This document shows positions 2,313-46,824 of a DNA stretch of 64,000 nt, piece by piece (the stretch's first letter is position 1; the number at the start of each line of letters is the position of its first letter). Source of the stretch: Chrysogorgia sp. JL179-B06 (Eukaryota > Cnidaria > Anthozoa > Scleralcyonacea > Chrysogorgiidae); NCBI GenBank assembly GCA_035772405.1, contig JAYKKM010000181.1, positions 543,001-607,000 of the forward strand, in the 5' to 3' direction. The notes beneath the pieces were generated by a model. The model saw only the letters and a list, made by a program, of their open reading frames with translations. It was not told the DNA's origin and did not search any database. The position numbers and the translations under genes were made by a program.

Positions 2313-2358
2313 TAGAATACTCGTACGTTCCAATGACGTAGGTGCAATGAATATTCTA
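2313..2358 (-). promoter_or_regulatory. ATTGCAC stem-loop near the 3' end of L1
   Basis: On the minus strand the 10-nt stem strand TAGAATATTC (2358-2349) is followed at once by ATTGCAC (2348-2342), an inner ACGTA...TACGT-like stem, and the return strand GAGTATTCTA (2322-2313, one wobble). The layout resembles U1A-binding hairpins and internal loops, and the RT may also read it. The structure is seen in the sequence; the function is inferred. Confidence 0.7.
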
Positions 2359-2422: not shown

Positions 2423-2718
2423 GTGTTTATTTCACCCAGTACAGACCAATTAAGGAGAGACCAGGGAAGGGGTTAAATTAATCCTAAATTAACTATTTTA
2501 TCCCAACGCCGAGGCGGTGGGAAGTTTAAGTTAAAAAGGATAAAAGGTTAAAAGGTTAAAAAGAGAGACAGTGTTTACTTCACCCAGTGCAGACCAATTA
2601 AGGAGAGACCAGGGAAGGGGTTAAATTTATCCTACATTAACTATTTTATCCCAGCGCCAAGGCGAAGGGAGGTTTAAGTTAAAAAGGATAAAAGGTTAAA
2701 AAGAGAAGTCGAGCTTCT
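2423..2718 (-). repeat. Tandem duplication (about 148 bp) in the L1 3' UTR
   Basis: A block starting gtgtttatttcaccc (2423) recurs from 2571 as gtgtttacttcaccc. Both contain the same aaggagagaccagggaa segment and end in a ggataaaaggtt repeat. L2, L3 and L4 hold this block once. The second unit ends at the ORF2 stop region. Confidence 0.8.
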
Positions 2719-5700
2719 CCCCATTAAAAACACCCAAGGTCCCCCCCGCGAGCCATTCTTTTTCAAAAATGGCCCGTTGGCGTGGCAAAGAGTGCTTTCT
2801 GGCGTGCAGACGCAGCAAGAATTTAATTCTCGCAATAGCTGATTTCAGGCATTTATTTTCATCTGGCGGAATCTCACGAAAGCGAAAGTCGCATCGTGCA
2901 AGCCAGATACGATGCTTAATAATATGCAGCATCCATATTATGACTTTGGGCGTTAACTGTTTCCGTGCACCAGTAAACCCAAAGAGGAGCTCTTTAACGG
3001 TGAAGGGCGTAGCGTTAGGCACCGAAAGAGTAAATTGAAAGAAAACCCAGTTAATTAATATTTGGGCAAAGGCGCAGTTAAAGAAAAGATGTTCTAAAGT
3101 TTCTTCATCGGAACCGCAGAAGCACATAATGTCGATGCGACGGTTACCAAAAGAACGGACAAGCCGAAAAGCGGTATAGAGGATCCCATGCGCAACCTTC
3201 CAATTGAGGTCCACAGCACCGCGTTCTAATGATGTCATATGGAGCTGCCGCCAGGTATCGGGCCAGTAAAGTGCACCATACACGGGCCTGAATTTGTCCA
3301 CACAGTGTGGTGGTGAATAGCGCAAGTTGAGGCCCACTCGGTAGACTTTCTGAGTGGAAAACTCGGAAACGTCCAGAGGCACATCCTTGGATATGGCTAT
3401 CGCAAGATTACCTCCATTGGAGCCCCCCTGAAATTGGCGCCACGCCGTCAAGAGCTGACGGTAAAAAAGTGGTAGCTGTTGCATGGATACACGGTTGAAC
3501 GTGGACCGAAGTCTTAGAATGGTACCAAGATGGAGATTAAACGCGCGAACGAAAGAATGGTAAAAAAGGACCTTCCATTTCGCGCATGAGTCCGAGTAGA
3601 AGCGTTTGAACCACTGGAGCCGCAGTGCGTCTGCTTTCAGCCGAAAGTCGACCACACTAAAGCCCCCAACAGACTGCGAAGTGGTGACGGTGCGGCGTGC
3701 TACCAAATCACGCTTACCTCCCCAAAAGAAAGGCCAAATGGCTTTGTCAAGACGGGACGCCACCCATCCTGGCATAACAAAAACGGTACATAGGTGCCAA
3801 ATCTGGGAAAGGGCAAGAGCGTTAATAATTAAAGATCGTCCCTGATATGAAAGGGAACGCCCTTTCCAAGACGAAAGTCTCTTTTCCACTTTGACGACCC
3901 TATTTTCCCAGGTCGCCTGGCTATAGTCGGAGGCGCCAATGACGGCCCCGAGTATGGGAAGCTCTTTTACCCACGATACACCGTGGGGGGTGTCCGAGCG
4001 ATTTTTCCAAGACCCCAGCCACAAGCCTTTTGACTTGCCCCGGTTGAGCTTCGCCCCAGTGCCGAGCTCATATTGCGCGTATACTTGGAAAACTGCTGGG
4101 AGTGAATCGTCCGAGGTGACAACAACGGTTGTGTCATCCGCGTAACAAGAAACACGTAACTCTTCTATGGACCCAGGTAACCTGAGGCCAGATATACCAG
4201 GAGCAGTGCGCAAGTTGCAAGCGAGTACTTCCGCGCATAAAACATACAAGAGAGGTGATAATGGGCAGCCCTGGCGTACCCCACGAGAAGGACTGAAGAA
4301 AGGAGATGTCCAGCCGTTTATCATAACAGCCGACTCAACATCAGTATAAAAAAGCCGGACCCAGTTGCAAAAGCTAGGCCCAAAACCCATTGTAGACAGC
4401 GTCCGCGACAGAAAGCCCCAATCCACACGATCAAAAGCTTTCTCCTGATCTAGAGAAAGGAGAGCCACGGGTAGCTGGTTAACGTCAGCATAATCGATGA
4501 CATCCCGCAGGATGCTTAAGTTCTCAGAAATAGTTCTGCCGGGGATACCACATGTTTGGTCAGGTGACACCACGGAAGAAATAACGCTCAGAAGTCGACC
4601 AGCGATCGCACGCGTAGCAATCTTGTAGTCAGCGTTCAATAAGCTTATTGGACGCCAGTTTTTGGTCACGAGACGGTCACCCTTTTTATATAAAACTATA
4701 ATAAGACCACGGCGTTGGGATATGGAAAGGCGCCCGTTGGAATGAGCGAAGTTTAGCACGGTTACCAGGTCTGAGCCGAGGATATCCCAAAATGCCCAAT
4801 AAAATTCGATGGGAAACCCGTCAATACCTGGTGTCTTACCAGTAGCCATGCCCTTGGCGGCAGCTTCACACTCCTCTGAGGTAAGCAGACCTTCGCAGCG
4901 AGCTTGTTCCACTGCGGACAGTTGTTTCACCAATTTAGAAAGAAGCAAAGTCTGTACCACAGGGTCACAAGGGTCCGCGGTAAACAGGTTAGTATAGTAG
5001 GACTGCCACACCTTAAGGATGGCAAGAGAATCATGATGGACAGTCTTTGAGATCGGGTCCTGAATGGCCGACATAAATTGTTTGCGCTGGTGTTTTTGCG
5101 CTAGGGAGAAGAAGTATGAAGAAGAGGTTTCCCCTTCTTCGACCCATCGGCACCGGGCACGAACTTGTGCTGCCCTTGCCTCCCGGAGTTCATAGGAACG
5201 TAAGTCCTCTTGGACAGTACAGATCTCCGCAAAAACGGATGAATCACCCGCGTCAAACAGGTGCTGTAAATCCTGCAGGCGACGAGTTAGAGAGCGTTTT
5301 AACTCAGAGGCAGATAAGGCTTTAGCTTTACAGTACGACCTCGTGACTTCCCTCAAGTAAAACTTCCCCATGTCCCACCAGTCGGGGGGGTTGGAGAAAT
5401 CACTGGATTGTGTCTTCCAGAAAGCCCAGAACGACCGTACCAGCTTGCAGTACTCAGGATCCTTGAGTACGGAGGTGTTCAGCTTCCAGTACCCAGGACC
5501 TATACCCATGGAAGAAGGAAGAGAAAAGGTTACGAGTAGGTAGCGGTGATCCGAAAAAAAGGAAGGATAGTACTCACTAGCTTCGATATGCTCTTGAAGA
5601 CTGATTGGTGCCCACACCATATCTATGCGCGAGGAGCACTCACCAGAAGCATGGTCCCAAGAGAAAGAAGAGACATCCGGATGTTGCGTGCGCCAAACAG

Positions 5701-6224
5701 GAAAGGTGTTTGTAGCCGAGAGAAGCGACTGCAAGGCCGTAACACTCTCCGCAGCAAGGTTGGGAGATGCCCGCTGGTACGACGGCGGGTGGCGCCGGTC
5801 GAGAGTTGGGTCGAGAACAGAATTAAAATCCCCACATAAAAAGGTGGGCAAAGCAAGATCGATAAAATCGGGCAAGGAAGCAAAAAAACGGTTCCTGTCC
5901 GGGTTCCGGTTAGGGGCGTACAAGGATGCAAAACGCACCCTCTCATCATCCATAGTAACCTCAGCTTGGACGAAGCGGCCTGCATCGTCACGCCGCACCT
6001 GCTCAATTCGATGGCGAGAATGAACGAGGATGGCGGTGCCTACCCGTTTGTTGGATGTAGACGAGGAGGCAACCGCATAACCGGAGGAGGAAAACCATGT
6101 ACGTAATGTAGCATGGGAAATAAGCGTGTGTCTCCTGCAGACACACAATGTCAGCTTTCATGCACTGAAGCCAATGAATGAATGTGGTACGTTTCGTACG
6201 GTCATTCAGACCGCTTACGTTCAT
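2696..6224 (-). pseudogene. L1 ORF2: APE endonuclease - reverse transcriptase, one frameshift
   Basis: ORF2 makes the target nick and reverse-transcribes the element RNA at it (target-primed reverse transcription). Domains in order: AP-endonuclease-like N-terminus (NVSGLND, CLQETHA, SLYAPNRN, CGDFNSVLD, SSRIDMVWAP, SDHRYLL), reverse transcriptase with LDQEKAFDRVDW (motif A), SRGVRQGCPLSPLLYVL (motif B) and CYADDTT (motif C), and a C-terminal Cys/His region CFCGSDEETLEHLFFNC (zf-RVT type). About 1,175 codons. An extra A near 6119-6122, relative to L3, shifts the frame just after the CLQETHA motif, so the endonuclease is split. It starts 44 nt after the ORF1 stop. The APE domain presumably sets the U1 specificity (inference). 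Confidence 0.9.
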
Positions 6225-6268: not shown

Positions 6269-7999
6269 TTAGGGAGAAGGTAACTTCTCCACCACTTCTA
6301 ACAAAGTATCCGGGTTCGTGGTGAGGGCGTCGAGCATAGCATCGATTTCCTCACGACTTGCCAGATCAGTCACATCTGAAAAACACGCGGAACCAGGATC
6401 AGAAAACGTGTCCAAACTAGGAAACAACAAAGGCGACTCAGGGGATGCTGGCGATGTAATGGAGCCAATAAACGAGCCGACCTGATCACTACGGCCATCG
6501 TCATCTGCAACCCCATAGCCAGGGCTATCATGCTCCAACTCCAAATCAGTGGGTAAGACACCAACAGTATCCTCCTGAGGAGTTGAGGAGTCTTGGGATG
6601 ATGGTAACAGCTCCAGATGAAGGGAAGCCGCCGAGTCCGACTGGGGGGCCACATCAGTTGGCAAAGCGCCATGTACGGTGTGCATGCCGACCGTAGGCGG
6701 AGAGGGGGGTAGAACCCTAGAGTCAAACTGACTCCACTGCGCGGATGGATCGGGCGCGGTGGAATCATCACCACTGGTATTAGGTGAGAATAAAAGCGGT
6801 GACCATGCCGTATCCAGCACAGGACCGCTAGGCGTAATCGCCGCAACCGCAGTTGGTGAAGGCGGCGTAATAGTCCGAAAAGGACTGGAAGGAGGGGGAG
6901 AGATGGTCTCAGCAATTATAGAAGCTGAATCTCCTGCAGACAAATCCGCGACCTCAACAGGAAGAGGAAGGTTACAAGCCTGCAAATGAACTGATCCGTC
7001 AGGATCAAGGGGGACAAAAACTGTTGTATCCGGAATGAAGTCCGAATCCGATAGTTCGTCCCAAAGTGGTCTTTTGGTGACACTTTCATCACTGTGGGCC
7101 CGGCCACGCTTAATTCCCTTGGGTGCCATTTCCTCGAGAGAATCCTCTTTACAGGAATTGCAAGGAGGGAGTTCAGAGGAAAGGGGCGTGACGGTGACAA
7201 CAATGGTGTCGCCAACAACAGTAGAGGACCGATCTGGAGGAACGTGCGTTTGTGCAGGTCTTGGAGGAGAAAGTGGTGGTGGTGGCGGGAGAGACGGTGG
7301 TGGTGGTGGCGGCGACGATAGACAAGGTCTAACATCCTTCAAAGCTGCCACACGAGCGAGGGTGGTGGAAACCACGTCCTCCGTTCCAACAGAAGTACTG
7401 GCAGCAGTGCGCGGAGGAGCAGCTGCCTTAGCGGCGTAGGAACGCCGAGGACAACGTTGAACCACATGACCCACTTGACCACAACCGTAACAGGCAGTGG
7501 GCTGGTCCTTATAGTTTACGCGGCATCTATAGCCCGCAATCTTTAAAAAGGTCGGGATATGCTGATTAATACGCATGGTGACCATACGTGTGCCCGACTG
7601 AATATGTTGGAAGCCTTTGATGGGAAGGTGCTTGACCGTGGACACACGACCAAACTGCCCTAAGGCTTCATGAAACTCTTTATTCGGGAACTGCAAGGGC
7701 GCTTGTTCCACGAAAACACGCGTGAGATTTTCATATGCTGGAGCGGGGGTGAGATGGACACCCCGAAAATCAAAACCATGGAGGTCAAAATCACGGCGCA
7801 ACTCATTATCCTTAAATTGCACACGGAGTTGCAACTGTGGTAAGATCTGTATGCCCAGTAGTTTTTCAGGGCCAAGTGCTTTGAGAAATTCTGTGCGCAC
7901 GACCTTGAGCTGATCCGCCCCAACTATTCTCTTTGGAAGAGTCACGACCGAGGTCGTGCTGTTCCATACACAATAATCTAAATCACTGTATGACGACAT
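6269..7999 (-). CDS. L1 ORF1: gag-like RNA-binding protein with zinc knuckle
   Basis: A 576-aa open frame. The N-terminal ~165 residues (DYCVWNSTTSVVTLPKRIVG onward, with FDFRGVHLTP and VFVEQAPLQFP) resemble the RRM-like gag region of Tx1-type LINEs. One CCHC knuckle CYGCGQVGHVVQRC lies near residues 170-184, followed by a low-complexity half with a polyproline run (PPPPPPSLPPPPP). It should coat the element RNA and guide it to the nucleus (family knowledge). Only point differences separate it from the L3 ORF1. It differs in sequence from the ORF1 of the U2-targeted elements, so U1 and U2 elements form two lineages. Confidence 0.9.
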   Translation of the reverse strand: MSSYSDLDYCVWNSTTSVVTLPKRIVGADQLKVVRTEFLKALGPEKLLGIQILPQLQLRVQFKDNELRRDFDLHGFDFRGVHLTPAPAYENLTRVFVEQAPLQFPNKEFHEALGQFGRVSTVKHLPIKGFQHIQSGTRMVTMRINQHIPTFLKIAGYRCRVNYKDQPTACYGCGQVGHVVQRCPRRSYAAKAAAPPRTAASTSVGTEDVVSTTLARVAALKDVRPCLSSPPPPPPSLPPPPPLSPPRPAQTHVPPDRSSTVVGDTIVVTVTPLSSELPPCNSCKEDSLEEMAPKGIKRGRAHSDESVTKRPLWDELSDSDFIPDTTVFVPLDPDGSVHLQACNLPLPVEVADLSAGDSASIIAETISPPPSSPFRTITPPSPTAVAAITPSGPVLDTAWSPLLFSPNTSGDDSTAPDPSAQWSQFDSRVLPPSPPTVGMHTVHGALPTDVAPQSDSAASLHLELLPSSQDSSTPQEDTVGVLPTDLELEHDSPGYGVADDDGRSDQVGSFIGSITSPASPESPLLFPSLDTFSDPGSACFSDVTDLASREEIDAMLDALTTNPDTLLEVVEKLPSP

Positions 8000-9001: not shown

Positions 9002-9170
9002 GTGTGGGCCGTACTCGGAGGTAGTGCGATACCGAGACAACCCGTGGCCAGGGCGAAGCAAGCTTCACAATCCCATGGCCGAGGTCCAAAAATCAGTTTA
9101 ATATATGAGCTAGGCAATGCCTAGCATACCAGATATTAAGCTGATAAGAACAGATACTACACTTGATCTT
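9002..9170 (-). ncRNA. U2: U2 snRNA copy 1, body (nt 23 to 3' end)
   Basis: The minus strand shows AAGATCAAGTGTAGTATC, TTCTTATCAGC, the branch-site-region neighbour sequences, ATATATTAAACTGATTTTTGG (with the Sm-like site) and the 3' stem ending near GGCCCACAC. It is cut at nt 22/23 by the 501-bp hairpin-chain element; the 5' end is at 9672-9697. The 3' end position is estimated by comparison with vertebrate U2. Confidence 0.93.
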
Positions 9171-9671
9171 GTTTTGTGGTGTCTCGGTTCACCCGTGGCC
9201 TCGAAGAGAGCCGCGTGCAATGGGCGAACCGGCCGCAGTGTGTGCACTCGTGTCCCTCACTAGGTTTGCGACCCTGGCAAACCCGAATTGGAGGGGGACC
9301 TACAGTTTAACGTCCAATCCGAAGGACGACCGGTTGTTCCGCCGAAGCGGCCGAGGACCTACGGTTTAACGCCCTTATCCGAGAAGGCGAACGTTTTACG
9401 TCTGCTAGGACGACAGTTCAAGTTAACGTCGAGAAGACGAACGTACTTGTCCCGAAGGTACAAGTACATCTTCACCTTTCCCCTAGGGTACTAAGCTGCA
9501 GATTCACGTTTCCCCCGAAGGGTACTCCGCGCCAAGTTTAACGTCCATAAGACGGCACGTTTAAAGTCCGAGGGACCACGTTTTACGTCCAGAAGACGGA
9601 CCGCTCCTCAAAACCAATTAGTTCGCATTCGTCTTAAATAAAAGACGTGCGGTTTTTCTACCCGAAACGGG
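9171..9671 (-). mobile_element. Hairpin-chain element, copy 1 (501 bp, non-autonomous, U2-targeted)
   Basis: Inserted in U2 with the 4-bp target repeat tctt (9167-9170 and 9672-9675). It holds no convincing gene; the two 68-codon frames are not supported. It is a string of short inverted repeats: ggtttgc/gcaaacc (9263/9277), cgtcc/ggacg (9311/9324), ccgc/gcgg (9339/9347), cgtc/gacg (9399/9409, 9427/9436, 9542/9551, 9586/9595), gtacttgt/acaagtac (9443/9460), gtcc/ggac (9566/9573), cgtctt/aagacg (9630/9642) and acccg/cgggt (9660/9668), spaced by gtttaac-like links. On the minus strand its 3' end carries the ATTGCAC stem-loop shared with the LINEs, so it may be mobilised by them (inference). Confidence 0.75.
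9186..9230 (-). promoter_or_regulatory. ATTGCAC stem-loop near the 3' end of hairpin-chain copy 1
   Basis: Minus strand: GGTTCGCCC (9230-9222), ATTGCAC (9221-9215), an inner GGC...GCC hairpin, and return strand GGGTGAACC (9194-9186); nine pairs including one wobble. Same plan as in the LINE 3' ends. The second copy is at 13,032-13,076. Confidence 0.7.
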
Positions 9672-10454: not shown

Positions 10455-10619
10455 AAGGGGACGAGCGCGAACGCAGGTCCCCACTACCAGAAATTATACG
10501 CTCGAGTTGCCCACATTTGGGGCAATCGCAGGAGTCAACCCAGTCGAAGTGCAATGAGAGGGCCTCATCCTGAGAGGACTCCCTATGTGATCAGAGTGCC
10601 TCTCGCGTCAGGTAAGTAT
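10455..10619 (-). ncRNA. U1: U1 snRNA copy 2, the only uninterrupted U1 in the window
   Basis: About 165 nt on the minus strand, beginning ATACTTACCTG at 10619. It has the 5' splice-site-pairing sequence, the hairpin-II loop CATTGCACTTCG (U1A site ATTGCAC), CCCCAAATGTGGG, the Sm-like site ATAATTTCTGG and a final GC stem. The promoter side (10,620 rightward) is intact. The neighbouring U2 (from 11,001) is interrupted twice. The 3' end is placed by comparison with vertebrate U1 and may be off by a few bases. Confidence 0.95.
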
Positions 10620-11000
10620 GAGTTTTCCCGGCGAAGGCTTTTGGATTTTGATTGGATAAGAGGTTTATCGGGCATGTGGGCGAACGGTGAATTCGAGCAT
10701 GAAAACGTGGATGTTTTGGTGATGCATATTACAATTGTAGAGGATCGCGATGTAGGGCATAGTTATTTTTAATTAAAGCTACGTACTTACTTGGTGTTCG
10801 TTGACGTCGGTCGTGGATTGCTGCATATCCCGAACTGTCGATTGTTGATTTGTTGGTTGTGAATTTGCATATGTTCGAGTTTGGTGTTGAGAGTGAGTAG
10901 GTGGTACTGGCTTGGTGATCGGCTGCACCTGTTGGAAGGAATAAGAAATATGAATCAGTGGAATCATTTCGTTATTTTTATGTTTCTTTTTTATTGTGAT

Positions 11001-11153
11001 GTGTGGGCCGTACTCGGAGGTAGTGCGATACCGAGACAACCCGTGGCCAGGGCGAAGCAAGCTTCACAATCCCATGGCCGAGGTCCAAAAATCAGTTTAA
11101 TATATGAGCTAGGCAATGCCTAGCATACCAGATATTAAGCTGATAAGAACAGA
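11001..11153 (-). ncRNA. U2: U2 snRNA copy 2, body, broken by an 1,827-bp insertion
   Basis: Same U2 sequence as copy 1 up to TCTGTTCTTATCAGC, where the element 11,154-12,980 interrupts it. The missing part, with a 20-bp target duplication (11,134-11,153 = 12,981-13,000), resumes at 12,981-13,016 and, after the hairpin-chain element, at 13,518-13,543. Confidence 0.92.
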
Positions 11154-12980
11154 GATTTATTATTTACATGTTCAAAACTGATGGGACTGGTGAGTGACAA
11201 AGGTGAATAACGAAGAAAGTATACGCTCATGGGATGTCGTATTTATATAGCTTTTGGCTCTAATGTTTGACTCATATTGAGGTTAACTACCTAGTGTAAA
11301 GGCTTGAATTGAGGCATGTAAAAGTACGATAAAATTAAAAGTATAAAAGGTGTAGTGTGAAGTGTGGCATGTGGTAGTGTGGACCCTAGTAGTCCTCATA
11401 ACCGTAGGCTTCTTCTTCTGCATGGTCGTAGTCAGGCTCGGAGTCGCTGGGTTGGAATTTTCCATCGCGGAGGCTTCGGTAGCAATCGTAATCATCTTCG
11501 TTGGCGTAATCTTCATCAATCTGGCTGCGTGTTGTTGTTCCTTGGCTGTCGTCTCGTGGTTTAAAATTAGAATGGACTAAAGTTTTCGGAACATCGTTGG
11601 CAAACGAGAAAATGTTAATTGCGTTGGCGAATTCGGGATTACCAAGCTTCGAGTTGGCGACGCGTTGAGTATGATAAAATAGTTCGGAGAGATCGTCCAG
11701 GAAAAAAGGCAGTATCATGAGGTATGAGGCTCTCGAAGAGGTCGGTTGTGGTGTCAATTAGCACCGCGAATCGTTCAGGCATTTCGTGCATCTCATTACA
11801 GAAAACGGAAGCATAGTCGAGTATAGGCCGCAGAGTTGTATCTGGAATGTTGGATTTGGCACACCACTTGGTAAGGAAGGCTTCGATGCGGTCGTGGCTT
11901 TCGGTATTTTCATTACAATTTAAGAGATGGAGCTCAATCAGTTCTGGGTCAATGTCAGGCTCGTCGCACAGTCGGCAGCGTGCAAGACCGGTTTGAGCGA
12001 AAGAAGAAGAAGTTGTTTTGGTCGCGGTTGAGATGTCTGCGCTGGTCTCGGCGTCTCGCATGCTCGGTCCTTCTCGATCGGTGTTCGTCTGTATGTCTCT
12101 GCTTGTTGTGGTTTGAGTAAAAAGGGCAGAGGCGGTCTGGACAAACACTTCACTTGTCGGTTGTGGAGCTGTTTGGGAGGCTGTTGACACGGCTTTGGCG
12201 GTCGAAGGAAGTTTAGAACGGCGAGCGGGAACAGGTGGAGAAGTTTGTGTCGAGGAGCATTTGGTTGTGACAGGAATTGGTTGAGGACGAACAGGAGAAG
12301 AAACTACGGCCGCGTACGAAGGATAGTGTATCGGCGACGGTGGTGATGAGCGATTTGGACGAAGCGGCGTTGACGAGTAATAGCCGGCATCGGGCGATGT
12401 AGATACTGGAAGCACTGGAGAGGCAGCAGCAGGAATCTGCGAGGTGGTGGTCCAGTTGATCATGGCGGTCAGGGTATTTGCTTCGAACGAAGCGGTCCAG
12501 GTGGGTTCGGTGGCAGGATTGTCCAGGAGGTTGAGGATGGCAGTCGGGAACGTCGGCAACGGTGTTCCTGACAACGGGTCAGGAACGGTGGACCACATAA
12601 CTGTGGCGGAGCAGCTCGAGGAGCACCCAGAGATACTCCACGAGAGCGGCGACGACCGAGCACATGATTCCACCACTTTCTGAAGCGCCAAAGGCACAAC
12701 AGATCGTGGCGGTCCCAATATACCCGGCACGCATGCACAATGCCAATTGCGCATAGGTTTTCCTCTCTGAGATTCCACAGGTACTACAGAATGGTTCCTA
12801 AAGAACCCTTCCCTGTGGGCCCCCAAAGAGGTAGACCGGGAACCGTGCATTTCAAGGCAAGAGAGTGTTACCAGTTAGCAACTGGAGCATGGATCCACCC
12901 TCTGCTACCTTTAGCTCACGGGATCACCTCTCGAAAACCTTGAATTTTAACAAGACCAAGTGTAAAACTTAACCAAAATG
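11154..12980 (-). mobile_element. Unclassified 1.8-kb retroelement inserted in U2 with 20-bp target duplication
   Basis: It is bounded by the 20-bp duplication of U2 sequence around TTCTTATCAGC. It lies in the same orientation as U2. Its 5' end shares gttagcaact...gcatggatcc (around 12,886-12,906) with LINE A, so its leader is related to the U2 LINEs. It carries one gag-like frame and no APE or RT. The 3' end has AATAAA just before the junction and no ATTGCAC hairpin. It uses a different U2 position from the other elements. It could be a non-autonomous ORF1-only element or a retrocopy of a cellular mRNA. Confidence 0.6.
11386..12850 (-). pseudogene. Unknown S/T/P-rich protein with a C2HC-like finger, one frameshift
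   Basis: I do not recognise the family. The N-terminal half is rich in Ser, Thr and Pro with repeated QT and TQT motifs. A short Cys/His cluster CRLCDEPDIDPELIELHLLNC follows near residue 300, in separable pieces C-x2-C and H-x3-C, like a zinc finger. After it comes a helical region and a strongly acidic, Tyr-rich tail (ending EEEAYGYEDY). The frame changes near 11,700 at an A run, so it is now two frames, 12,850-11,639 and 11,757-11,386. It could be an ORF1 of a LINE or a captured host gene. No enzymatic domain is visible. Confidence 0.5.
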
Positions 12981-13016
12981 ATTAAGCTGATAAGAACAGA
13001 TACTACACTTGATCTT
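12981..13016 (-). ncRNA. U2: U2 snRNA copy 2, middle fragment
   Basis: It contains the second copy of the 20-bp target repeat (12,981-13,000) and U2 sequence back to GATCAAG at 13,011-13,016, bounded by two different insertions. Confidence 0.88.
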
Positions 13017-13517
13017 GTTTTGTGGTGTCTCGGTTCACCCGTGGCCTCGAAGAGAGCCGCGTGCAATGGGCGAACCGGCCGCAGTGTGTGCACTCGTGTC
13101 CCTCACTAGGTTTGCGACCCTGGCAAACCCGAATTGGAGGGGGACCTACAGTTTAACGTCCAATCCGAAGGACGACCGGTTGTTCCGCCGAAGCGGCCGA
13201 GGACCTACGGTTTAACGCCCTTATCCGAGAAGGCGAACGTTTTACGTCTGCTAGGACGACAGTTCAAGTTAACGTCGAGAAGACGAACGTACTTGTCCCG
13301 AAGGTACAAGTACATCTTCACCTTTCCCCTAGGGTACTAAGCTGCAGATTCACGTTTCCCCCGAAGGGTACTCCGCGCCAAGTTTAACGTCCATAAGACG
13401 GCACGTTTAAAGTCCGAGGGACCACGTTTTACGTCCAGAAGACGGACCGCTCCTCAAAACCAATTAGTTCGCATTCGTCTTAAATAAAAGACGTGCGGTT
13501 TTTCTACCCGAAACGGG
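13017..13517 (-). mobile_element. Hairpin-chain element, copy 2
   Basis: Same length and, as far as I can read, same sequence as 9,171-9,671, at the same U2 site with the same tctt repeat. The surrounding array unit is also identical out to U1, so this copy probably arose by duplication of the whole repeat unit and not by a second insertion. Confidence 0.75.
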
Positions 13518-14475: not shown

Positions 14476-14519
14476 AGAATATTCGTACATTCCGAGGACG
14501 TACGTGCAAAGAATATTCT
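14476..14519 (-). promoter_or_regulatory. TTTGCAC stem-loop near the 3' end of L2
   Basis: Perfect 9-nt stem AGAATATTC (14,519-14,511) / GAATATTCT (14,484-14,476). The heptamer after the 5' strand is TTTGCAC (14,510-14,504), one base off the ATTGCAC of the others, followed by an inner GTAC/GTAC stem. Confidence 0.65.
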
Positions 14520-21129: not shown

Positions 21130-22445
21130 TTTTTATCTTTAAAAACACTTTATTTCATAGAACTTAGTTTACAATACGTCTGTTTCTTTACTTATTTCAT
21201 AATTTTCTCATGCGGTGTTCATACATTTGCTCTATCGTTTTTCCTTGTTCAAAGACTTTTTCTTCGTTATTTTTATGATTTTTTTTTTGTTCATTTTATT
21301 GTTTATTGTTCAATAAGATTGTGTTTCTTCTGGTCCGTTTACTCCATCCTGTACGCGGCGGCAGTCAACTTTGCAGCTTGGCACGTTCTTTGTTTACGTC
21401 TGCGTATACTGTTTCCGGTTTTCTCGTAGCGGTATTCTTGTTATGTTCGTTATTTGCTTCGTATCCTTGTTTCTTTGTTTAATTCCTTGTTTATTTGGTT
21501 GTCTTTCTGTTGTATCACTTTTTTCTCATCATTTTAATGTCTCTTTCTTTGTTAACATTTAGTTCTTTTGACTGTCTATTTCTTTGTCTGTCCATTTGTC
21601 ACGCGACGCTTCACATTCTTTAGTACTTGTATTTATTACGCTGGGTTTCCGGTTGTGGGATTGGGCGCTGCGCAACGCTTTGACCCACACCGTCGGCCCA
21701 GCTCAATTGTATGTTCTTCTTTATTTTCTTTCCATTTTCCGTGTTCTTCACTAGTACTGGGTAGGCATTCACAGGAGCTCCAAGTTCTACGGTCTCGGCA
21801 GCGGCTAGGAGAGCGCCCAGACGCCCCATGGTGATCAGCCACAACCACGACTGTTTGCTCGCCTTGCTTCCTTCACCGATGGTTTCAGTTGGACGGGTTT
21901 GTGGTGTATTCTGCCATTACCTTCCGTGGCTCACGGACTGTGAGGGAGGGCCTCGGGACCTGAGCGTATTGTGCTGTGCCTCAATCTCCCAGATCGAGGA
22001 ACATCAGGCGGGCGCACGCACGACAAAACGCTGCCCACCGTCTGAACCTCTGCCGTGAAAACACGGTCTGTGAGAGATGGCCATGCAGCTCTGTGCACAG
22101 CACAACCACCTACTGTCCCCCAGAAGAGACACGGTTAGCGAGCGTGCGACCTTCACTCCCCCCAACACAAAAAGGGAGTTCCGGCCGCCCGCACACCGCC
22201 CGTGCCTCATCCGTGGCCACGGTCGGGTCCGGCAAATACCCGGGTCCGGCTTTCGGTACTCAGCCGAGAGGAGGGTTCCTAGTTCACCCGAGCCAAGACC
22301 AAACTCGAGATCCCCAGGTCCTTGCTCTGCGGCCAGAGTCTTCCCACCGGACCACACTTACCCGTCTTCACCTACACCACCGGCTGAAGTCCTCCACCTC
22401 TGCTTGGGTCTTCGATCGCCTCCCGGCCGGTAGATCTGTTCCCCC
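21130..22445 (-). mobile_element. Reverse-transcribed insertion in U2 with 15-bp target duplication
   Basis: On the minus strand this 1.3-kb segment ends in an A-rich 700-nt 3' region with AATAAA about 15 nt before a short GATAAAAAA tail, and is bounded by perfect 15-bp repeats of U2. These are the signs of LINE-mediated retrotransposition of a polyadenylated RNA. The 5' half is GC-rich. The longest frames (for example 21,620-21,844 minus) match no family I know. It is either a processed pseudogene or a 5'-truncated LINE of another clade. Confidence 0.6.
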
Positions 22446-22472
22446 ATAAGAACAGATACTACACTTGATCTT
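22446..22472 (-). ncRNA. U2: U2 snRNA copy 3, middle fragment
   Basis: 27 bp of U2 (AAGATCAAGTGTAGTATC onward, minus strand) between the retrocopy and L6. It includes the second target repeat and the tctt repeat of L6 (22,469-22,472). Confidence 0.88.
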
Positions 22473-22515
22473 GTTTTGAAAATCACATACCTGACAGTCT
22501 CATGATCACCCCACA

Positions 22516-22522
22516 GTGCAAT
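22516..22522 (-). promoter_or_regulatory. ATTGCAC motif near the 3' end of L6
   Basis: Minus strand CCC-ATTGCACTGT-GGG: a 10-nt loop beginning ATTGCAC closed by only three clear pairs, the loop size of U1 stem-loop II. The stem is weaker than in the other elements. It lies about 50 nt from the 3' junction. Confidence 0.5.
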
Positions 22523-23080
22523 GGGCCCCCGCGACTTGTGTGCTAACAGGAATGACCTCATGGAGGTACCAACATAGATACTAAGACCAGGATAAGGGGT
22601 TCGACCACCTCTCCATACGCCATGAAAACTTGTCTCGTGATACGGTCGATCGAAAGTGAGGCTCTGTTGGGCCCCACCCCCTCCCGACTAATGGGCGTGT
22701 GATTCGAATTTCCAGCAATAATGAAAAATGAATCGTGAACGACCGCACCAAAATAAATGGCGCGAGACAACATGATTTAGCGTGAGGTTCTGACCGACGA
22801 CTACCGAGCCGAGAACGACTACAGTAGACTTCTTTACGAGGCAGGGGACCTGAATCGTCTTCAAGTGAAGAGTCTCCAGAGTCACCCCACCGGAAGTCGA
22901 ACGAACAAACAAAACAAAACAAACGAGATACGGGGGCAGATAAAGCTCAAAGAACCCAAACCGAAGTATGGGGTTACCTCAGGCCGCACCAAGCCTCCAC
23001 CGGAGGGCAGAAGCTGGTAGCTAAGATGTCGCGCATTCCAGACGGCCGAGGCCTCTAAGCCTATGCTGCTACGGACGGGA

Positions 23081-25423
23081 TTACGAACGGCGATTGTTTC
23101 GTTTGTTACGCCCCCTGGGCCCCTTCTTCGGAGGAGGTGGATCCCGCTTCGGATCGGGACCCCGTTTGGGAGCCGGACCCTTCCTGGGGACTGGGCGAGA
23201 AGGAGAACGAGCACCAAGAGGCGGAAAATCGTCCTCAACTTCTGGTGAATGAACTGCCTTGTCCTGACGGACCGGTGCCGGGGGAGAGCGACCGTCGAAA
23301 CTATCCCGGGAAGAGCCTGAGGCAGAAGCCGGGGGGACGAAGTCACAAGGCGGATGGTCTAGTGGAATAATGACAGGCACATTAGCCGGGGAGGAGGGAG
23401 GGTTGGGGGAGAAAGGGGAGGCTAAAGAACAGGTAAGGAGGTCATCATCCTCGTATTCGGGGGTGAAGGTAATCGGGATAAGGTTAGTCGGATCCTGGTT
23501 AATAGGGTTGAAAGTATGGAACCCTTCCAATAATTGGGTGCGGGAGTGTTCCGTCATTATTGCCTCATCCTCCTCGTCCATGTCCACGAAGACTTCTGTA
23601 ACATCCGAGCAGTCGTGAAGGGCACTAGAAATTATCGTTACAACACCAGTCACAGTCCCCGAACGAGGATCAGCAGAGAGAGCCGGTGTAGCGGCCAAAT
23701 CGGACTTTGCGGGCGGAGGACGGTCACGATCCGTACGCTCACGCGGGGAGCGGTCCCGAACAACCGGAGTGGGCGAGGGTGGCCCCGTAACCAGACTGCG
23801 TAAAGGCCGCTGACCAACCGGACGAGATGACAAAGCCTCGGGCGCAGCACCGGAGGCCTGGACATTGATGGTCGGGAGGGAGCTCTCAACGGAGTCCGGC
23901 GAGGCAAAAGACAACGCGGGGACCACGGAGAGCTCAACAACCACAGTCTGGTCAATCGTAACCCCGGGGGGGACTAAGTCCGACGACCCAGGGTCCACCA
24001 CAAGTGGAGGCGACGGAGATAGGGACGGAGGAGCTGAATGGACAGGGGAGACAGGCACTGATTTAACGGGTGCCAGGAGCGAACCATCAACGGGGACCAC
24101 GGAGAGTGCAACCCCCCCAACTTGGAGAATCCCAAGCCCACCAATAGGGAGAACTGGGTCAGAGGGCATGCAATCCACCACCACGGGAGGAGATGCAGAG
24201 AGAGACGGAGGAGCAACCACATCAACAGGGGGAGCTGTGTCCAAGGACCTTGAATCCACCACGACGGGAGGAGACGGAGTGAGGGACAAATGGGCGGTGT
24301 GAATCGGGGAACGGTCACGAGTGACAGGGTCTGATGCTTCCACAGTGGGGACCGGGAAAGATGTACCCGTAACCACCACAGGGAGAGATGGAGGAGCAGT
24401 GTCTAAGTGGGAGGAACACCCACCGGGGTCCACCAAGGGGACCACAGATATTGGTTGAATAGGAGCCGCCGGACGACCGCGCTGGCGCGGAGAACGATCA
24501 CGTACCGGGGGGGGCTCACCGACCAAATCATGTTCACCAATTGCCAGACCCGAAAAAGAATTACTAGTGGCAACGGGGGGAACGACGGGGAGGCGACCGT
24601 TAAGCTGGGGACTGTGCCCAGGAACGGTGGTCCAACCATCGGAGGCGACGCGGGAAACGGGGGATGTAGGCAGAGGGAAATCCACCCCGGGGTCATCATC
24701 GGACAACTCCAGATCCTGGAGGAGCGCGTGGTCATCTGCAATAGCGGCGTCTGCCGCATCAGCTTGCAGAGCAAGGGTGCCCAGAACTGCTGCCGAAAAA
24801 AGCGGCAACCGTGCGCTCAAATTCGGCGCAACACTACCCCGGAGAGGAGGGCGGTTCTGGAGCCGGACCGGACAGGACTTGGACTCATGCCCGGGTTTAC
24901 CACAGTGGAAACAAGTGCGAGTTTGTCCCTGGTAAAATATATTACAGGGAAAACCTTGTGCATGAAGGCGCGAAGGGATAGCGCGACGTACGTCCATAAG
25001 GACGCGACGGACGGCCGACCGAATGCCGACATGAGTGACATACTCTAATTTGTAAACCTCCCCATAGTCCAAGAGGAGAGATTTAAGCAAATCGTCAGAC
25101 ACACCAAATGGGAGCCTGGCGACAGTGACCCATTTCTTAGAATTAATTGGGGTCAGTTGCATGGGGTGGCCACGGAATGTCAGCCCAGAATGAATGACAT
25201 CCTCGAGCTGATTTCCTGAAACAAAAGTGAAACACACCTTATTCACTGCGAACAGGTCGACGCAGTCGAATAAGGATTGATATGTTTGGGGCCGCTGACG
25301 CTTCAAGTCTTCCGCCAGCTCCCGAAACGTCACCCGCGGTTTATCGACAAGGGCGAGCGACGAAAGAACACCAATGGCCTTCCGATTGGAGTATGGCGTT
25401 GCCATACCGCAAACCGGACACAC
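23081..25423 (-). CDS. L6 ORF1: gag-like protein with zinc knuckle, long proline-rich tail
   Basis: 780 codons. The likely start is the Met before ATPYSNRK (residue 8). Residues 10-170 form the conserved LINE gag region (SKKWVTVARLPFGV). One CCHC knuckle CFHCGKPGHESKSC lies near 180. A very long Ser/Pro/Val-rich tail follows, with repeated (S/P)PSLSPSPPVVVD-type units and RDRSP(R/I) repeats, ending in a Lys/Arg-rich stretch. It is related to LINE A and L5 but not closely to the ORF1 of U1-targeted elements. It presumably binds its own RNA; open through its length, so perhaps still expressed. Confidence 0.87.
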   Translation of the reverse strand: MCPVCGMATPYSNRKAIGVLSSLALVDKPRVTFRELAEDLKRQRPQTYQSLFDCVDLFAVNKVCFTFVSGNQLEDVIHSGLTFRGHPMQLTPINSKKWVTVARLPFGVSDDLLKSLLLDYGEVYKLEYVTHVGIRSAVRRVLMDVRRAIPSRLHAQGFPCNIFYQGQTRTCFHCGKPGHESKSCPVRLQNRPPLRGSVAPNLSARLPLFSAAVLGTLALQADAADAAIADDHALLQDLELSDDDPGVDFPLPTSPVSRVASDGWTTVPGHSPQLNGRLPVVPPVATSNSFSGLAIGEHDLVGEPPPVRDRSPRQRGRPAAPIQPISVVPLVDPGGCSSHLDTAPPSLPVVVTGTSFPVPTVEASDPVTRDRSPIHTAHLSLTPSPPVVVDSRSLDTAPPVDVVAPPSLSASPPVVVDCMPSDPVLPIGGLGILQVGGVALSVVPVDGSLLAPVKSVPVSPVHSAPPSLSPSPPLVVDPGSSDLVPPGVTIDQTVVVELSVVPALSFASPDSVESSLPTINVQASGAAPEALSSRPVGQRPLRSLVTGPPSPTPVVRDRSPRERTDRDRPPPAKSDLAATPALSADPRSGTVTGVVTIISSALHDCSDVTEVFVDMDEEDEAIMTEHSRTQLLEGFHTFNPINQDPTNLIPITFTPEYEDDDLLTCSLASPFSPNPPSSPANVPVIIPLDHPPCDFVPPASASGSSRDSFDGRSPPAPVRQDKAVHSPEVEDDFPPLGARSPSRPVPRKGPAPKRGPDPKRDPPPPKKGPRGRNKRNNRRS

Positions 25424-25713
25424 GAACAGAGAAAAAACACAAAAACTTACGGACCAAGGCCCTCGAGTCCCAACAGGGAGTCAAGGGCAAACACCACAGA
25501 CGGAAAGAGACTAAGTCCACCACACCAGACACGCAGGATGGCGCTCCCACGAAAACTAGACAAGCGCGGTCCAGGCGCCCAAAACCCACAATAAGAACAG
25601 CAACCAAGCGTTGATAACGGAAGAGGTGTATAAGCGTTACGAGCAGCGCTCGAGCATGGATCCGCCTAAGTCACCTTTAACACCACGAAGATCTTCGGTA
25701 CCGCTTACTGCCT

Positions 25714-25739
25714 TCTTAGCCAAAAGGCCGAGAAGCGAT
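25714..25739 (-). ncRNA. U2: U2 snRNA copy 3, 5' fragment (nt 1-26)
   Basis: Conserved U2 5' end beside L6. Confidence 0.92.
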
Positions 25740-26671: not shown

Positions 26672-26717
26672 TAGAATACTCGTACGTTCCAATGACGTAG
26701 GTGCAATGAATATTCTA
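26672..26717 (-). promoter_or_regulatory. ATTGCAC stem-loop near the 3' end of L3
   Basis: Same sequence as in L1; ATTGCAC at 26,707-26,701 on the minus strand, directly after the TAGAATATTC stem strand. Confidence 0.7.
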
Positions 26718-32817: not shown

Positions 32818-32835
32818 CTCTCGCGTCAGGTAAGT
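32818..32835 (-). ncRNA. U1: 18-bp U1 remnant between two tandem LINEs
   Basis: Only U1 nt 3-20 remain. It is the target repeat produced by successive insertions of L3 and L4 into one U1 gene. Confidence 0.9.
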
Positions 32836-32847
32836 TTTTATTTTGAG

Positions 32848-32893
32848 TAGAATATTCCTACATTCCGAGGACGTAGGTGCAATGAATATTCTA
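32848..32893 (-). promoter_or_regulatory. ATTGCAC stem-loop near the 3' end of L4
   Basis: Perfect 10-nt stem TAGAATATTC (32,893-32,884) / GAATATTCTA (32,857-32,848) enclosing ATTGCAC (32,883-32,877) and an inner CTAC/GTAG stem. This is the cleanest example in the window. Confidence 0.75.
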
Positions 32894-33091
32894 AACAGAG
32901 GGAGCTTACATAGCTGCTGAACATGCTGGGAGTACGACTCCCACCCTCGTAATTATAGTGTTTACTTCACCCAGTACAGACCAATTAAGGAGAGACCAGG
33001 GAAGGGGTTAAATTTATCCTACATTAACTAATTTATCCCAAAGCAGAGGCTAAGGGAGGTTTAAGATAAAAAGGATAAAAGGTTAAAAAGG

Positions 33092-36000
33092 TTAAAAAGA
33101 GAAGTCTAGCTTCTCCCCGTTAAAAACACCCAAGGACCCCCCAGCAAGCCATTCTCTTTCAAAAATGGCCCGACGGCGCGGCGAGGAATGTTTCTTTGCG
33201 TGCAGACTCAGAAGAAATTTAATGCGCGCTATAATTACTTTAAGACATTTGCTCTCGTCCGGCGGAATGTCACGGAAGCGGAAGTCACAGCGGGCGATCC
33301 ATATGCGATGCTTCACCAACTGCAACATCCACATAATGATTTTTGGCGTGGATGTTTTACGCGCACCTGTAAATCCAAAAAGAAGTTCTTGGACTGTAAA
33401 TGGTGCGGCATTTGGAACTGACAAGGTCAGTTGAAAAAAGACCCAGTTGATGAGCAGCTGTGCAAAGGAGCATTCAAAGAAGAGATGTTCCAATGTCTCC
33501 TCATCCGCTCCGCAAAAAACACATGATTTCCATACGGCGATAGCCGAACGATCGGACAAGCCGAACCGCAGTGTAAAGGACACCGTGGGCGATCTTCCAG
33601 TTCAGATCGTTTGCACCACGCTCCAACGAGAGCATATGAATTTGCTGCCAAGTATCTTGCCAGTATAGGTCGCCATACACAGGGCGGAACTTCTCCACAC
33701 AATGTGGAGGTTTACGACGTATTGCTAATGCAACACCGTATACTTTATGAGTCGTAAAATCCTCGATATTCAGAGGCACGTCCCTAGAAGTACCAATTGC
33801 GAGCTGGGAGCCGTTGGTGCCGCCTTGATAGGAGCGCCAGGCGAGCAGTAATTGTTGGTAGAAAGACGGGAGGCTTTGGATTGATGTCCGCTTAAAAGAC
33901 CGAAGCCGTAGCAGAGCATCGATACGTAGGTTAAAGCCTCGACCTAACAGGTAGCGGAAAAGATCCTTCCACTTCGCCCCGGAGTCAGAATGTACCCGCT
34001 TCAGCCATTGGAGCCGCAAAGCATCTGCCTTCAAGCGAAAATCAACAACGCCAAAACCGCCTTCCGACGTTGATGTGGTTACTGTACGTCTAGCAACCAA
34101 GTCCTTTTTGCCAGCCCAGAAGAAAGGCCAAATGGCTTTGTCAAGTCTGGATGCCACCCATCCAGGCATGACAAAGACGGTACATAAATGCCATATTTGT
34201 GAGAGGGCAAGTGAATTAATAATGAAGGCCTTTCCCTGATAGGAGAGATTGCGCCCTTTCCAGGAGGAAAGCCTCTTTTCCACCTTAGCAATGCGAGGTT
34301 CCCAGGTTACCGTCGCATAATCAGAGGTATTGAGGACGGCCCCAAGTACCGGAAGGTCTTTTACCCAAGTCAAACCGTGGGGGGTGTCCGTGCGATGTTT
34401 CCACGCCCCGAGCCACAAACCTTTGGACTTGCCACGGTTTAACTTCGCGCCTGTGCCTTTAGCGTAGCTCTCATACACCGCAAAAACTGTGGGAAGCGAG
34501 GTATCAGACGTAACGATGACTGTCGTGTCATCCGCGTAACAAGAGCACCGCAGTTCCTGGAGCGAGTCTGGCATTCGAAGGCCAGAAATTCCAGGGTCTG
34601 AACGCAGGTTACATGCAAGAACCTCAGCACACAGGACGTATAAGAGGGGTGACAGAGGACAGCCCTGTCTTACTCCCCGAGATGGACGGAAAAAGGGGGA
34701 CGTCCAGCCATTAATGATCACAGAGGATTCAACGTCAGTATAGAATAACTGAATCCACTGGCAAAAGCTGGACCCAAAACCCATGGTAGTGAGGGTGCGC
34801 GCCAGGAAAGCCCAATCGACCCGGTCGAAAGCTTTCTCCTGGTCGAGTGAAAGGAACGCTACGGGCAGTTGATGTGCCTCAGCCAAGTCGATGACATCAC
34901 GCAGAACGCTCAGGTTTTCCCCTATTGTTCTGCCAGGTATGCCACAAGTTTGGTCCGGCGATACCACTAAAGATATTACACGCAGGAGGCGACCGGAAAT
35001 AGCCCGAGTTGCAATCTTATAGTCTGTATTTAACAGACTAATTGGACGCCAGTTTTTGGTTTCCAAACGGTCTCCTTTTTTGTACAATACTATGATCAAC
35101 CCACGTCGCTGTGAGGTGGATAACGAGCCGGTTGAATAGGCAAAGTTTAAAACCTCTACTAGGTCTGGGCCGAGAATATCCCAGAAAGTCGAATAAAATT
35201 CGATAGGGAAACCATCTGACCCCGGTGTCTTTCCAGTAGCCATGCCAATCACTGCGGCATTACATTCCTCAGGTGTGAGAAGCCCTTCACAGCTCGCCTA
35301 TCCTTCCGCAGAGAGCTTCTTAACCAGTTTGGACAGAAGGAGATCCTGAACAGTGGAATCACACTCTTCTGCCGTAAAAAGATCTTTATAATAATTTTGC
35401 CAGATTTTAAGTATGGCAAGTGAGTCGTGCTGCACGACGGAAGTGACAGGATCCTTTATGGCGGACATTGTCTTTCTTTCCCGGTGTTTCTTTTCAAGGG
35501 AAAAGAAGTAAGCGGAGGACTTTTCCCCCTCTTCGGCCCATCGGCATCTTGCGCGTATCTGAGCTGCGCGAGCTTCTTTGATTTCATAGGAGCGTAAGTC
35601 CTCCTGAACAGAACAAAGCTCCTCGAAAACAGACGAGTCCCCAGCATCAAACAGACGCTGTAAATGTTGAAGCCGGTGACCTAAATTAACTTTCAGGGCT
35701 GACGCGGCTAAAGCTTTCGCCTTACAAAAGCTCCTTGTGATCTCTCTCAGGTAAAATTTCCCCATGTCCCACCAGTCAAGAGGGTTGGGGAATTCCTTGC
35801 TCTGTGTGCGCCAAAAGGACCAAAAAGATTTGACTAATTTGCAGTAGTCCGAGTCCTTGAGTATGGAAGTATTGAGCTTCCAATACCCGGGCCCAATACC
35901 GATAGAAGATGGAAGGGTGAATGTGACCAATAAGTAACGGTGGTCAGTAAAAAAGGAGGGATAATAATCACTGTCCTCAATATATTGTTGAAGATTGATT

Positions 36001-36623
36001 GGTGCCCAAACCATATCAATTCTTGAGGAGCACTCTCCTGAGGCGTGGTCCCATGAAAAGGAACGTACACCAGGGTGTTGGGTGCGCCATACGGGAAACG
36101 TATTAGTCGCAGAAAGAAGTGACTGCAAGGCAGAGACGCTCTCTGCAACTAAATTTGGTGTAGCACGCTGGTACGACGGCGGGTGGCGCCGGTCCAGCGT
36201 CGGATCCAGTACGGCGTTGAAGTCCCCACATAAAAAAGTGGGTACGACCAAGTCGACAAAATCAGGCAGTGAAGAAAAAAACTTGTTCCTCTCCGGATTA
36301 CGGCTTGGAGCGTAGAGAGATACAAAACGTACCCTCTCCTCGTCTATCATCACCTCTGCTTGCACGAAACGGCCAGCCTCATCGCGCCGCACCTTTTCGA
36401 GCTGATGACGAGAATGTATAAGGATAGCGGTGCCGACTCGTTTATTGGAGATGGACGAGGAAGCAACCGCATACCCAGAAGAAGAAAACCATGCTCTTAA
36501 TGTAGCATGTGATATAGCGTGCGTTTCTTGCAGGCATACAATGTCTGCTTTAACGCACTTAAGCCACTCAATAAAAGTGTTCCGTTTAATACGGTCATTA
36601 AGACCGTTTATATTTATTGTCAT
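33092..36623 (-). pseudogene. L4 ORF2: APE-RT with nonsense and frameshift
   Basis: The start is the Met before TININGLNDR at 36,623. An upstream in-frame stretch reaches 36,689 and overlaps the end of ORF1. APE and RT motifs are all recognisable (CLQETHA, CGDFNAVLD, LDQEKAFDRVDW, GCPLSPLLYVL, CYADDTT). A stop codon at 35,298-35,300 interrupts the region before the RT core where L2 has Gln. A frameshift near 33,520-33,535, in an A run before CGADEETLEHLFFEC, separates the zf-RVT tail. Confidence 0.88.
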
Positions 36624-38102: not shown

Positions 38103-38493
38103 TGTGACCGGGGCAGACTTTAACTAGCCCAAAACTATAGCCTAGCTCTTCGTTTGCCTTGTTGTTTACGCACTAACCCACAAGCGTCCCTCATTGAATA
38201 TTCAAGTCTCTTGACTTTGTCTCTAACTTTCCTTGATATTTATTTGGACGGTGAAATTGATGTGGTCAACTAAAGGTTAACACCAAACTATAAATTAAAG
38301 TAACTATCTAATAGCTATGGATTACAAAAAACAATCATACATACCAACGTTGGCGGGTTCCTAGGCTAGGTTCTTCTCAATTCTTGTTCATGTTCTTGTT
38401 CGACTTAATTAAACGTATGAGCGCGCAGGCAAAGCAAAATTCCTATTTAAATGTTTCAATACTATACCGCGATAACAATGCTCAGCGGTTACA
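38103..38493 (-). repeat. BEL/Pao 3' LTR
   Basis: 391 bp; same sequence as 44,956-45,346. The 175 bp up to the pol stop (38,494-38,668) are AT-rich and non-coding. Confidence 0.94.
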
Positions 38494-38668
38494 TGGCTCC
38501 CCTAAATTGTAATATTATAATTTAACATTCCTAAGTTTCTTTTTGTTCTTAAATACTTAACTTGTAAATAACATCAATTTATATAATTCTTAGTTTATAA
38601 TAACTATTCATAATTCCTAATAATTGTTCATTAAATTATACTATACGTTCACATCTTGTAATTCCTTA

Positions 38669-44888: not shown

Positions 44889-44955
44889 TGTTTGATTAAC
44901 TCGTCTTTCTTGACAACATGAAACGGCTTTTCGTTGTTAACCCTTCGTTGTTGAC

Positions 44956-46763: not shown

Positions 46764-46777
46764 CATTTTGGGAATAT

Positions 46778-46824
46778 GCCTTCGCTCCGCGTGCCATAAA
46801 TGACCGCTCGCGTGCAATGAAGGC
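46778..46824 (-). promoter_or_regulatory. ATTGCAC stem-loop near the 3' end of L5
   Basis: Minus strand GCCTTC (46,824-46,819), ATTGCAC (46,818-46,812), an inner GCG/CGC-rich stem, GAAGGC (46,783-46,778). Six perfect pairs. Confidence 0.65.

Follow-up and report, generated by a model that had tools for sequence, protein, structure and literature searches.

The 3'-tail hairpin of LINEs inserted in U1 and U2 genes

The question of how target-specific long interspersed nuclear elements (LINEs) deliver their RNA to the few genes that they target is raised by a stretch of 64,000 nucleotides (nt) from the anthozoan Chrysogorgia sp. JL179-B06 (contig JAYKKM010000181.1, C181:543001-607000; genome of 781 Mb in 522 contigs), hereafter the window. 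Its minus strand carries array units of U1, 5S and U2 genes that are interrupted by insertions, and the 3' tails of several of these insertions hold a hairpin with the heptamer AUUGCAC, which the preliminary description had read as a binding site for the spliceosomal protein U1A/SNF. If that is true, the tail would mimic the protein site of the very small nuclear ribonucleoprotein (snRNP) that the target encodes, and would tie the parasite to its target directly at the level of RNA. Even on the plain reading, four tail families, several lineages of the second open reading frame (ORF2), riders and natural loop variants in one genome make a good natural experiment on how LINE tails are read. Here, we describe the hairpin within and beyond the window and weigh which protein may read it.

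All tail hairpins of the window lie on the minus strand. In the U1-site LINE L1 (family D), the hairpin at 2314-2357 reads AGAATATTC-AUUGCAC-(CUACGU..ACGUACG)-GAGUAUUCU and stands 14 nt ahead of the U1 junction, with its loop at 2342-2348. The other family D tails are those of L3, a copy of L1 (26673-26716, loop AUUGCAC at 26701-26707), L4 (32849-32892, loop AUUGCAC at 32877-32883, with the U1 duplication and, beyond it, L3 coming next) and L2 (14476-14519), whose loop is UUUGCAC at 14504-14510. At U2 genes, the non-coding hairpin-chain element of family A has GGTTCGCCC-AUUGCAC-...-GGGTGAACC at 9186-9230 and an identical second tail at 13032-13076; the tail hairpin of L6 (family B) at 22504-22529 is CCC-AUUGCACUGU-GGG with a terminal loop of 10-11 nt, and that of L5 (family C) is GCCUUC-AUUGCAC-...-GAAGGC at 46778-46824. 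The heptamers described previously were all found in place, with ATTGCAC at 2342, 26701, 32877, 9215, 13061, 46812 and 22516, and TTTGCAC in L2. It was likewise confirmed that the two U2 insertions at other sites (nt 35/36 and 39; 3' ends at 21130 and 11154) lack ATTGCAC.

These tails are not all independent. L3 matches L1 at 99% as its copy, the hairpin chain is present in two identical copies, and the 3' end of L4 resembles the ends of L2 and L1 at 88-93%, which leaves four unlike tail families in the window (hairpin chain, L6, L5 and L1-4). The predicted folds were rarely matched by shuffled sequences for L1 (7/200 as stable), L2 (2/200), L4 (0/200) and the hairpin chain (4/200); the result was less clear for L5 (18/200), and L6 was not above its shuffles (173/200). 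The placement of the L6 heptamer in a loop of about 10 nt holds for the layout of family B, where the heptamer opens a terminal loop of 10-12 nt, but the best single-sequence fold of L6 pairs the first two heptamer bases, AU. In family D the heptamer forms an internal loop between helices of 9 and 6 base pairs, and the same layout applies to A; that of C is less clear.

Loop sequences across the genome

The AUUGCAC tail hairpin recurs beyond the window. Patterns for non-intact junctions gave 104 places at U2 (100 of them listed) and 98 at U1. We compared 171 element/snRNA-gene 3' junctions of this one genome: 96 at U2 (16 at loci already sampled, plus 80 out of the 84 remaining on the list) and 75 at U1 (15 at loci already sampled, plus 60 out of a remaining 83; the 23 left aside all lay on contig C382). 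Families were assigned by sequence and not by individual folding (A 29, B 52, C 12, D 67, E 1). Ten rows fell outside this tally: L039, L048 and L070, with other sequence before U2; L111, whose upstream sequence is U1 gene-like and not an element; L116, L118 and L120, with a tail that we call G; and L124, L125 and L126, whose tail F is a hairpin with UAUGCAC, UAGCAC or CAUGAAC in an internal loop. The three unassigned U2 rows were, by eye, not A, B or C.

The heptamer slot was present in 161 of the 171 junctions, 157 of which had the GCA core. Except in two tails (25 and 26 nt), the distance between its 3' edge and the 3' end was 35-51 nt. C5 and A6 were kept in all 161 and G4 in 157; the search patterns for A and B required C5 and A6, and selecting B by its tail end alone also gave 52 rows. 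Exact AUUGCAC was found in 83 of the 171 (A 14, B 45, C 9, D 15, E 0). Among the 93 U2-site tails (the non-coding rider A together with B and C, whose stems differ), 68 had AUUGCAC and nine AUCGCAC, with A1 in 92, G4 in 89 and A6 in 93. Position 3 was the most variable at the U2 site (U in 39 of 50 distinct tails). The 67 loops of family D were UUUGCAC (26, the commonest), AUUGCAU (19), AUUGCAC (15), CUUGCAC (3), ACUGCAC (2) and ACAGCAC (2), so that A1 was lost in 29 copies.

The base preceding the heptamer was C in 151 of 160 A-D tails (A 29/29, B 44/52, C 12/12, D 66/67), and a C-G pair closed the 5' side of the heptamer in 31/32 D, 8/11 A and 20/25 B aligned tails. In family B the two positions were coupled: C before the heptamer went with U at position 3 (44/44), and U before it with C (6/8).

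The exact match to the U1A/SNF site is thus mainly kept in the U2-gene families and lost in the numerous U1-gene lineage, and on this tally conservation of the exact heptamer in every family was rejected and selection on it in all of them is not supported. Stems do differ between families while the heptamer is kept, as first described, but inside D the relation is reversed: the helix sequences are nearly fixed, the basal stem is near-invariant, and loop positions 1 and 7 vary. The drift that had been named as a sign against selection is seen in D (UUUGCAC, AUUGCAU), whereas the U2-site purines A1, G4 and A6 are kept. Nor is a need for the exact heptamer in reaching snRNA genes supported, since UUUGCAC and AUUGCAU tails sit at the U1 site, as does tail G, a U1-site LINE tail with a different hairpin loop and no heptamer. 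We rejected such a requirement for the U1 site; the choice of an snRNA target is independent of the exact heptamer.

Tail G follows at least two different upstream sequences (L116/L120 vs L118), and the U1-site LINE in L184, which bears it, has a C-like ORF2 (53% identity to C-terminal pieces). Hairpin-bearing copies also occur away from snRNA genes (L169, C, AUUGCAC; L170, D, AUUGCAU; L171, D, UUUGCAC), and L177 and L179, both with AUCGCAC, are located in mutated U2. The dispersed older copies L172-L176, L178 and L185-L187 had no recognisable 3' end.

Stem covariation and relatedness of the elements

Alignments of distinct tails comprised 32 of 33 D, 11 of 12 A, 25 of 28 B and 10 of 10 C sequences (L135, L033, L031, L041 and L064 were excluded). 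The named pairs were formed in 96.5% (D), 90.1% (A) and 91.3% (B) of cells, above every slid version, and cells with changes in both partners of a pair numbered 12 in D (0/500 shuffles as high), 4 in A (3/500) and 8 in B (0/500). The covariation that had been proposed as a check thus came out modestly positive in D, A and B and negative in C, and the hairpin is supported in three of the four families by modest stem covariation.

On their sequence features, the elements are Tx1-type LINEs: Pfam recognises an APE endonuclease and a reverse transcriptase (RT), and a protein named 'Transposon TX1' was matched at 47% identity with 61% of the query covered. ORF2s were matched with tails from their location, roughly 1.2-1.4 kb ahead of the junction. 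ORF2 identities were 65% between C and B1, 76% between B2 and B3, 49-52% between C or B1 and B2/B3, and 41-44% between D and all others, and the tree joined C with B1 (98/95) and B2 with B3 (100/100). The tails of B1, B2 and B3 align with one another, and the hairpin of C is unlike that of its ORF2 sister B1 although the loop is the same, which suggests that hairpins were replaced or rebuilt while the C-AUUGCAC loop stayed. The riders without ORF2, namely the non-coding A, the ORF1-only L6 and E (no ORF2 match in 1.4 kb upstream), share the hairpin and a CAAAA-type end.

A genome search for other Tx1 families with the protein P0094 yielded no closer relative among the 37 of 11806 candidates that were scored, all at 33-35% identity; at least 10 of the 37 lay in D elements of already sampled stretches. 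In collections of viral contigs and genome contigs, no relatives were confirmed.

A proposed reader encoded by the element

In every family with the hairpin, the 5' strand of the stem is closely followed by the GCA core. This common denominator could be explained by a reader that the element itself encodes, for which zebrafish LINEs offer a precedent: according to the available part of PMC4176376, their ORF2 protein binds the cognate 3' stem-loop, the stem generally and the loop specifically. The hairpin would then be a cis-acting 3'-tail signal of Tx1-type LINEs inserting into U1 and U2 genes; ORF2, perhaps with ORF1, would read stem plus loop and select the RNA 3' end for target-primed reverse transcription; the riders (hairpin chain, ORF1-only L6 and element E), bearing the same kind of hairpin, would be copied in trans; and the likeness to the SNF site would reflect ancestry or secondary use and not a need of every family. 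Since U2-site tails fit the U1A profile, U1-site tails fail it at A1, and both share the GCA core, we rank template recognition by the element's own proteins first, with the scales about level as to whether it is right, and binding by SNF second. The identity of the binder is what we infer here; the position of the hairpin, the conservation of its loop, its sharing with riders and its structure in three of four families are features of the tails themselves.

Several observations weigh against a reader encoded by the element. The commonest loop of A, B and C, and of a subset of D, equals, together with its C-G closing pair, the site of the target snRNPs' own protein, for which such a reader gives no reason, and tail G has a different loop on a U1-site LINE. 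The covariation is modest because the number of pairs with a double change (two per family in D, A and B) and the pair types did not go beyond shuffles, and the ten C tails showed none. Predicted ensembles pair part of the heptamer in representatives of A, B1, C and D. Single-sequence folds do the same in L6, A, B1, C and D1, which would make the loop harder to reach; the heptamer is left open in those of D2, E and mostly B2. ORF2 binding to the tail is itself putative, by analogy with zebrafish.

ORF1 could take part in reading the tail, as its N-terminus is predicted to contain two RRM-like folds and a CCHC knuckle. As a candidate U1A-like protein it was rejected: the best PDB matches were raver1, UP1, NONO and SXL, with low TM-scores of 0.23-0.40, and no U1A entry was among the best 50 or best 60 PDB matches of the fold.

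Possible alternatives: binding by a host protein, capture of a U1 tail, or chance

A host protein is the next candidate. The SNF protein (the U1A/U2B'' ortholog) may bind the loop, with the element RNA mimicking stem-loop II of U1 or stem-loop IV of U2, and the RNA would be kept close to the places of snRNP assembly and to the snRNA arrays, or shielded from ordinary 3' processing. The loops of the species itself are AUUGCAC in U1 and AUCGCAC in U2 (10549-10555 in the intact U1 gene at 10456-10619 and, for U2, in the gene from nt 24 on at 46593-46763, all on the minus strand) and differ at position 3, which is also where the U2-site tails vary most. The nearly invariant A1, G4 and A6 of these tails are the purines that U1A needs: in the accessible text of PMC2203988, losing one of them costs human U1A 5.0-6.8 kcal/mol and losing a pyrimidine 1.6-4 kcal/mol, with about 5 kcal/mol for A1 to G or C, a figure that does not cover A1 to U. 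SNF discriminates C-G from U-containing closing pairs (PMC5992148, as far as that text was available), and the coupling in B of the preceding base with position 3 follows the difference between U1 stem-loop II and U2 stem-loop IV. Both contexts that U1A accepts, a terminal loop (B) and an internal loop (A and D), are present, the loop of C is identical to that of B1 in an unlike hairpin, and a U2-like fragment near position 168 of the reverse strand of L183 carries AUUGCAC in stem-loop IV instead of the AUCGCAC of the window U2.

Set against this are the losses in D, where A1 is missing in 29 and U7 present in 19 of 67 copies, in sublineages that are numerous and contain many identical tails; the UUUGCAC tail of L2 has no ATTGCAC nearby, and tail G has no heptamer at all. 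C5 is invariant, though U1A tolerates pyrimidine changes better than purine changes, the folds often pair part of the heptamer, and the coupling in B may be a single event. The loop described as of U1A/SNF type therefore stands for most U2-site copies, where it directly follows a C-G pair, and fails often in D at A1. It is a tentative proposal that the U2-gene LINEs and their riders carry a genuine SNF-binding hairpin and use the host protein to enter the snRNP pathway or reach snRNA arrays, B3 having shifted from a U1-stem-loop-II-like to a U2-stem-loop-IV-like site and the U1-site lineage having later escaped, or partly outgrown, the need for SNF. Its rank is no lower, as a loop of arbitrary sequence could scarcely be expected to match the site of a protein from the snRNP of the target itself, which is a judgement and not a computation; host-protein capture by the tail hairpin is possible but unproven.

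It is unlikely that the ancestral tail was instead captured from the stem-loop II region of U1 snRNA by template switching, its loop then kept through reading by ORF2 while the stems diverged. Two B1 tails, a B2 tail and an L6-type tail are colinear with U1 nt 5-108, scoring 39, 39, 39 and 36 against shuffled means of 21-22, with 0, 0, 0 and 1 of 300 shuffles as high. These are, however, four related tails among 42 comparisons, an unrelated pair (the D tail of L162 and 5S rRNA) also reached 1/300, and B3 (50/300) and L036 (80/300) showed nothing. Once the comparison was anchored at the heptamer, 7-35 of 150 shuffles were as high in the six flank comparisons of B1, B2 and L6-type tails, and B3, C and D gave nothing; with a high whole-tail score that turns weak after anchoring, U1 was rejected as the source of the B tails.

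That unrelated hairpins share the heptamer by chance is very improbable: the raw count in the window is not enriched (13 ATTGCAC in 64 kb against 8.3 expected, a number reached by 10/100 shuffles, four of the 13 being U1 stem-loop II and two lying on the other strand outside tails), but the distance to the end is fixed, four tail families have the heptamer (exact in 7 of 12 tail representatives, with a probability of 0.3-1.7% in shuffles of each of these seven), and the stems covary modestly in D, A and B.

The elements and their surroundings in the window

Family D is inserted at the 5' end of U1, preceded by U1 nt 1-20 and followed by U1 from nt 4, with a 17-base-pair (bp) duplication. This is seen in L1 (2300-8600, minus strand; duplication CTTACCTGACGCGAGAG), which has ORF1 at 6269-7999 and ORF2 at 2696-6148 with APE and RT domains; the CCHC of ORF1 and the zf-RVT of ORF2 scored under the Pfam cut-off. 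Upstream of L1, 8601-9154 has exactly the sequence of 10600-11153, which precedes the intact U1 gene, so the host sequence expected to hold the snRNA promoter is intact there, and this promoter may drive L1. Families A, B and C are inserted in U2, with nt 1-25 before and nt 24 onwards after the element. On the minus strand of the window they are represented by the hairpin-chain element at 9170-9671 (U2 nt 24/25), by L6 at 22472-25714, whose single ORF1 (23081-25423) encodes 780 amino acids (aa), and by L5 at 46764-52807, with an ORF at 48040-52242 (CCHC, APE, RT) and a zf-RVT piece at 47184-47921.

An identical 80-nt L6-type tail occurs in 18 of the 96 U2 junctions, though L6 codes for ORF1 alone; L6 is perhaps a successful half-LINE. 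The hairpin-chain riders (9170-9671 and 13016-13517) sit at the U2 site and are made up, over roughly 500 nt, of short hairpins one after another. Element E, a U1-site element whose tail is in L115 and L182, looks similar by eye in the series of hairpins that precedes its tail, and a CCHC-like reading lies upstream, but BLAST found no real similarity between E and these riders.

At 32835-46194, L4 and then L3 form a tandem insertion at one U1 site, and a BEL/Pao-type element with two identical 393-bp long terminal repeats (38103-45348) splits L4; BEL/Pao elements are known from animals. In C294:1149256-1164267, three LINE ORF2 matches follow in a row about 6.1-6.2 kb apart; the contig is not on the list of exact U1 junctions, and this is probably a tandem array at a changed site. 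Of the minus-strand insertions at other U2 sites, that at 21130-22445 (U2 nt 35/36) has a 14-15-bp duplication around GTATCTGTTCTTAT and no ORF of 200 aa, and that at 11154-12980 (U2 nt 39) has a 20-bp target duplication (TCTGTTCTTATCAGCTTAAT) and a 403-aa ORF without a Pfam match. Several ORFs at 52890-63000 resemble, by eye, Maverick/adintovirus-like genes, the three longest without a Pfam match above the cut-off, and a Tc-like transposase at 63141-63968 scored under it.

Comparison with known systems

We found no text combining 'retrotransposon' and 'AUUGCAC' in a literature search that left most subscription journals and all of Repbase outside its scope, and searches on non-LTR elements with U1A protein and on U1 snRNA genes with Tx1 gave nothing on this subject by title. 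Insertion of non-LTR elements in U1 genes is not mentioned in the available portions of PMC4640811, PMC3706591 and PMC8869645.

Non-LTR elements in U2 genes are represented by Keno (APE-type) and Utopia (restriction-like-endonuclease type), the APE-like endonuclease of Keno being as in the elements described here. Their 3' flank starts at U2 nt 39 in the accessible part of PMC4640811, whereas A, B and C are followed by U2 from nt 24 and D by U1 from nt 4; the site given for them is that of the window element at 11154-12980. In Dada-U1 DNA transposons, which are elements of U1 genes, ATTGCAC likewise occurs close to the termini (PMC3706591, in the part available), but here it lies in a putative RNA-hairpin loop and is unrelated to the target flank. 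The known U1A/SNF sites (U1 stem-loop II, U2 stem-loop IV and the internal loop of the U1A pre-mRNA) resemble the tails in that a C-G (or U) closing pair precedes AUUGCAC or AUCGCAC, in a terminal or internal loop, to judge from the available text of PMC2203988 and PMC5992148; in contrast to them, the loop here stands in a transposon tail, a large U1-site sublineage lacks A1, and binding is putative. Finally, the stringent-type 3' stem-loops of zebrafish ZfL2-1 and ZfL2-2 (PMC4176376) are alike in being 3'-tail hairpins, and for other LINE/SINE pairs published abstracts report that riders share such tails. Reading of the tail by ORF2 is putative in Chrysogorgia, and here, unlike in the zebrafish tails, the loop often equals the site of a spliceosomal protein.
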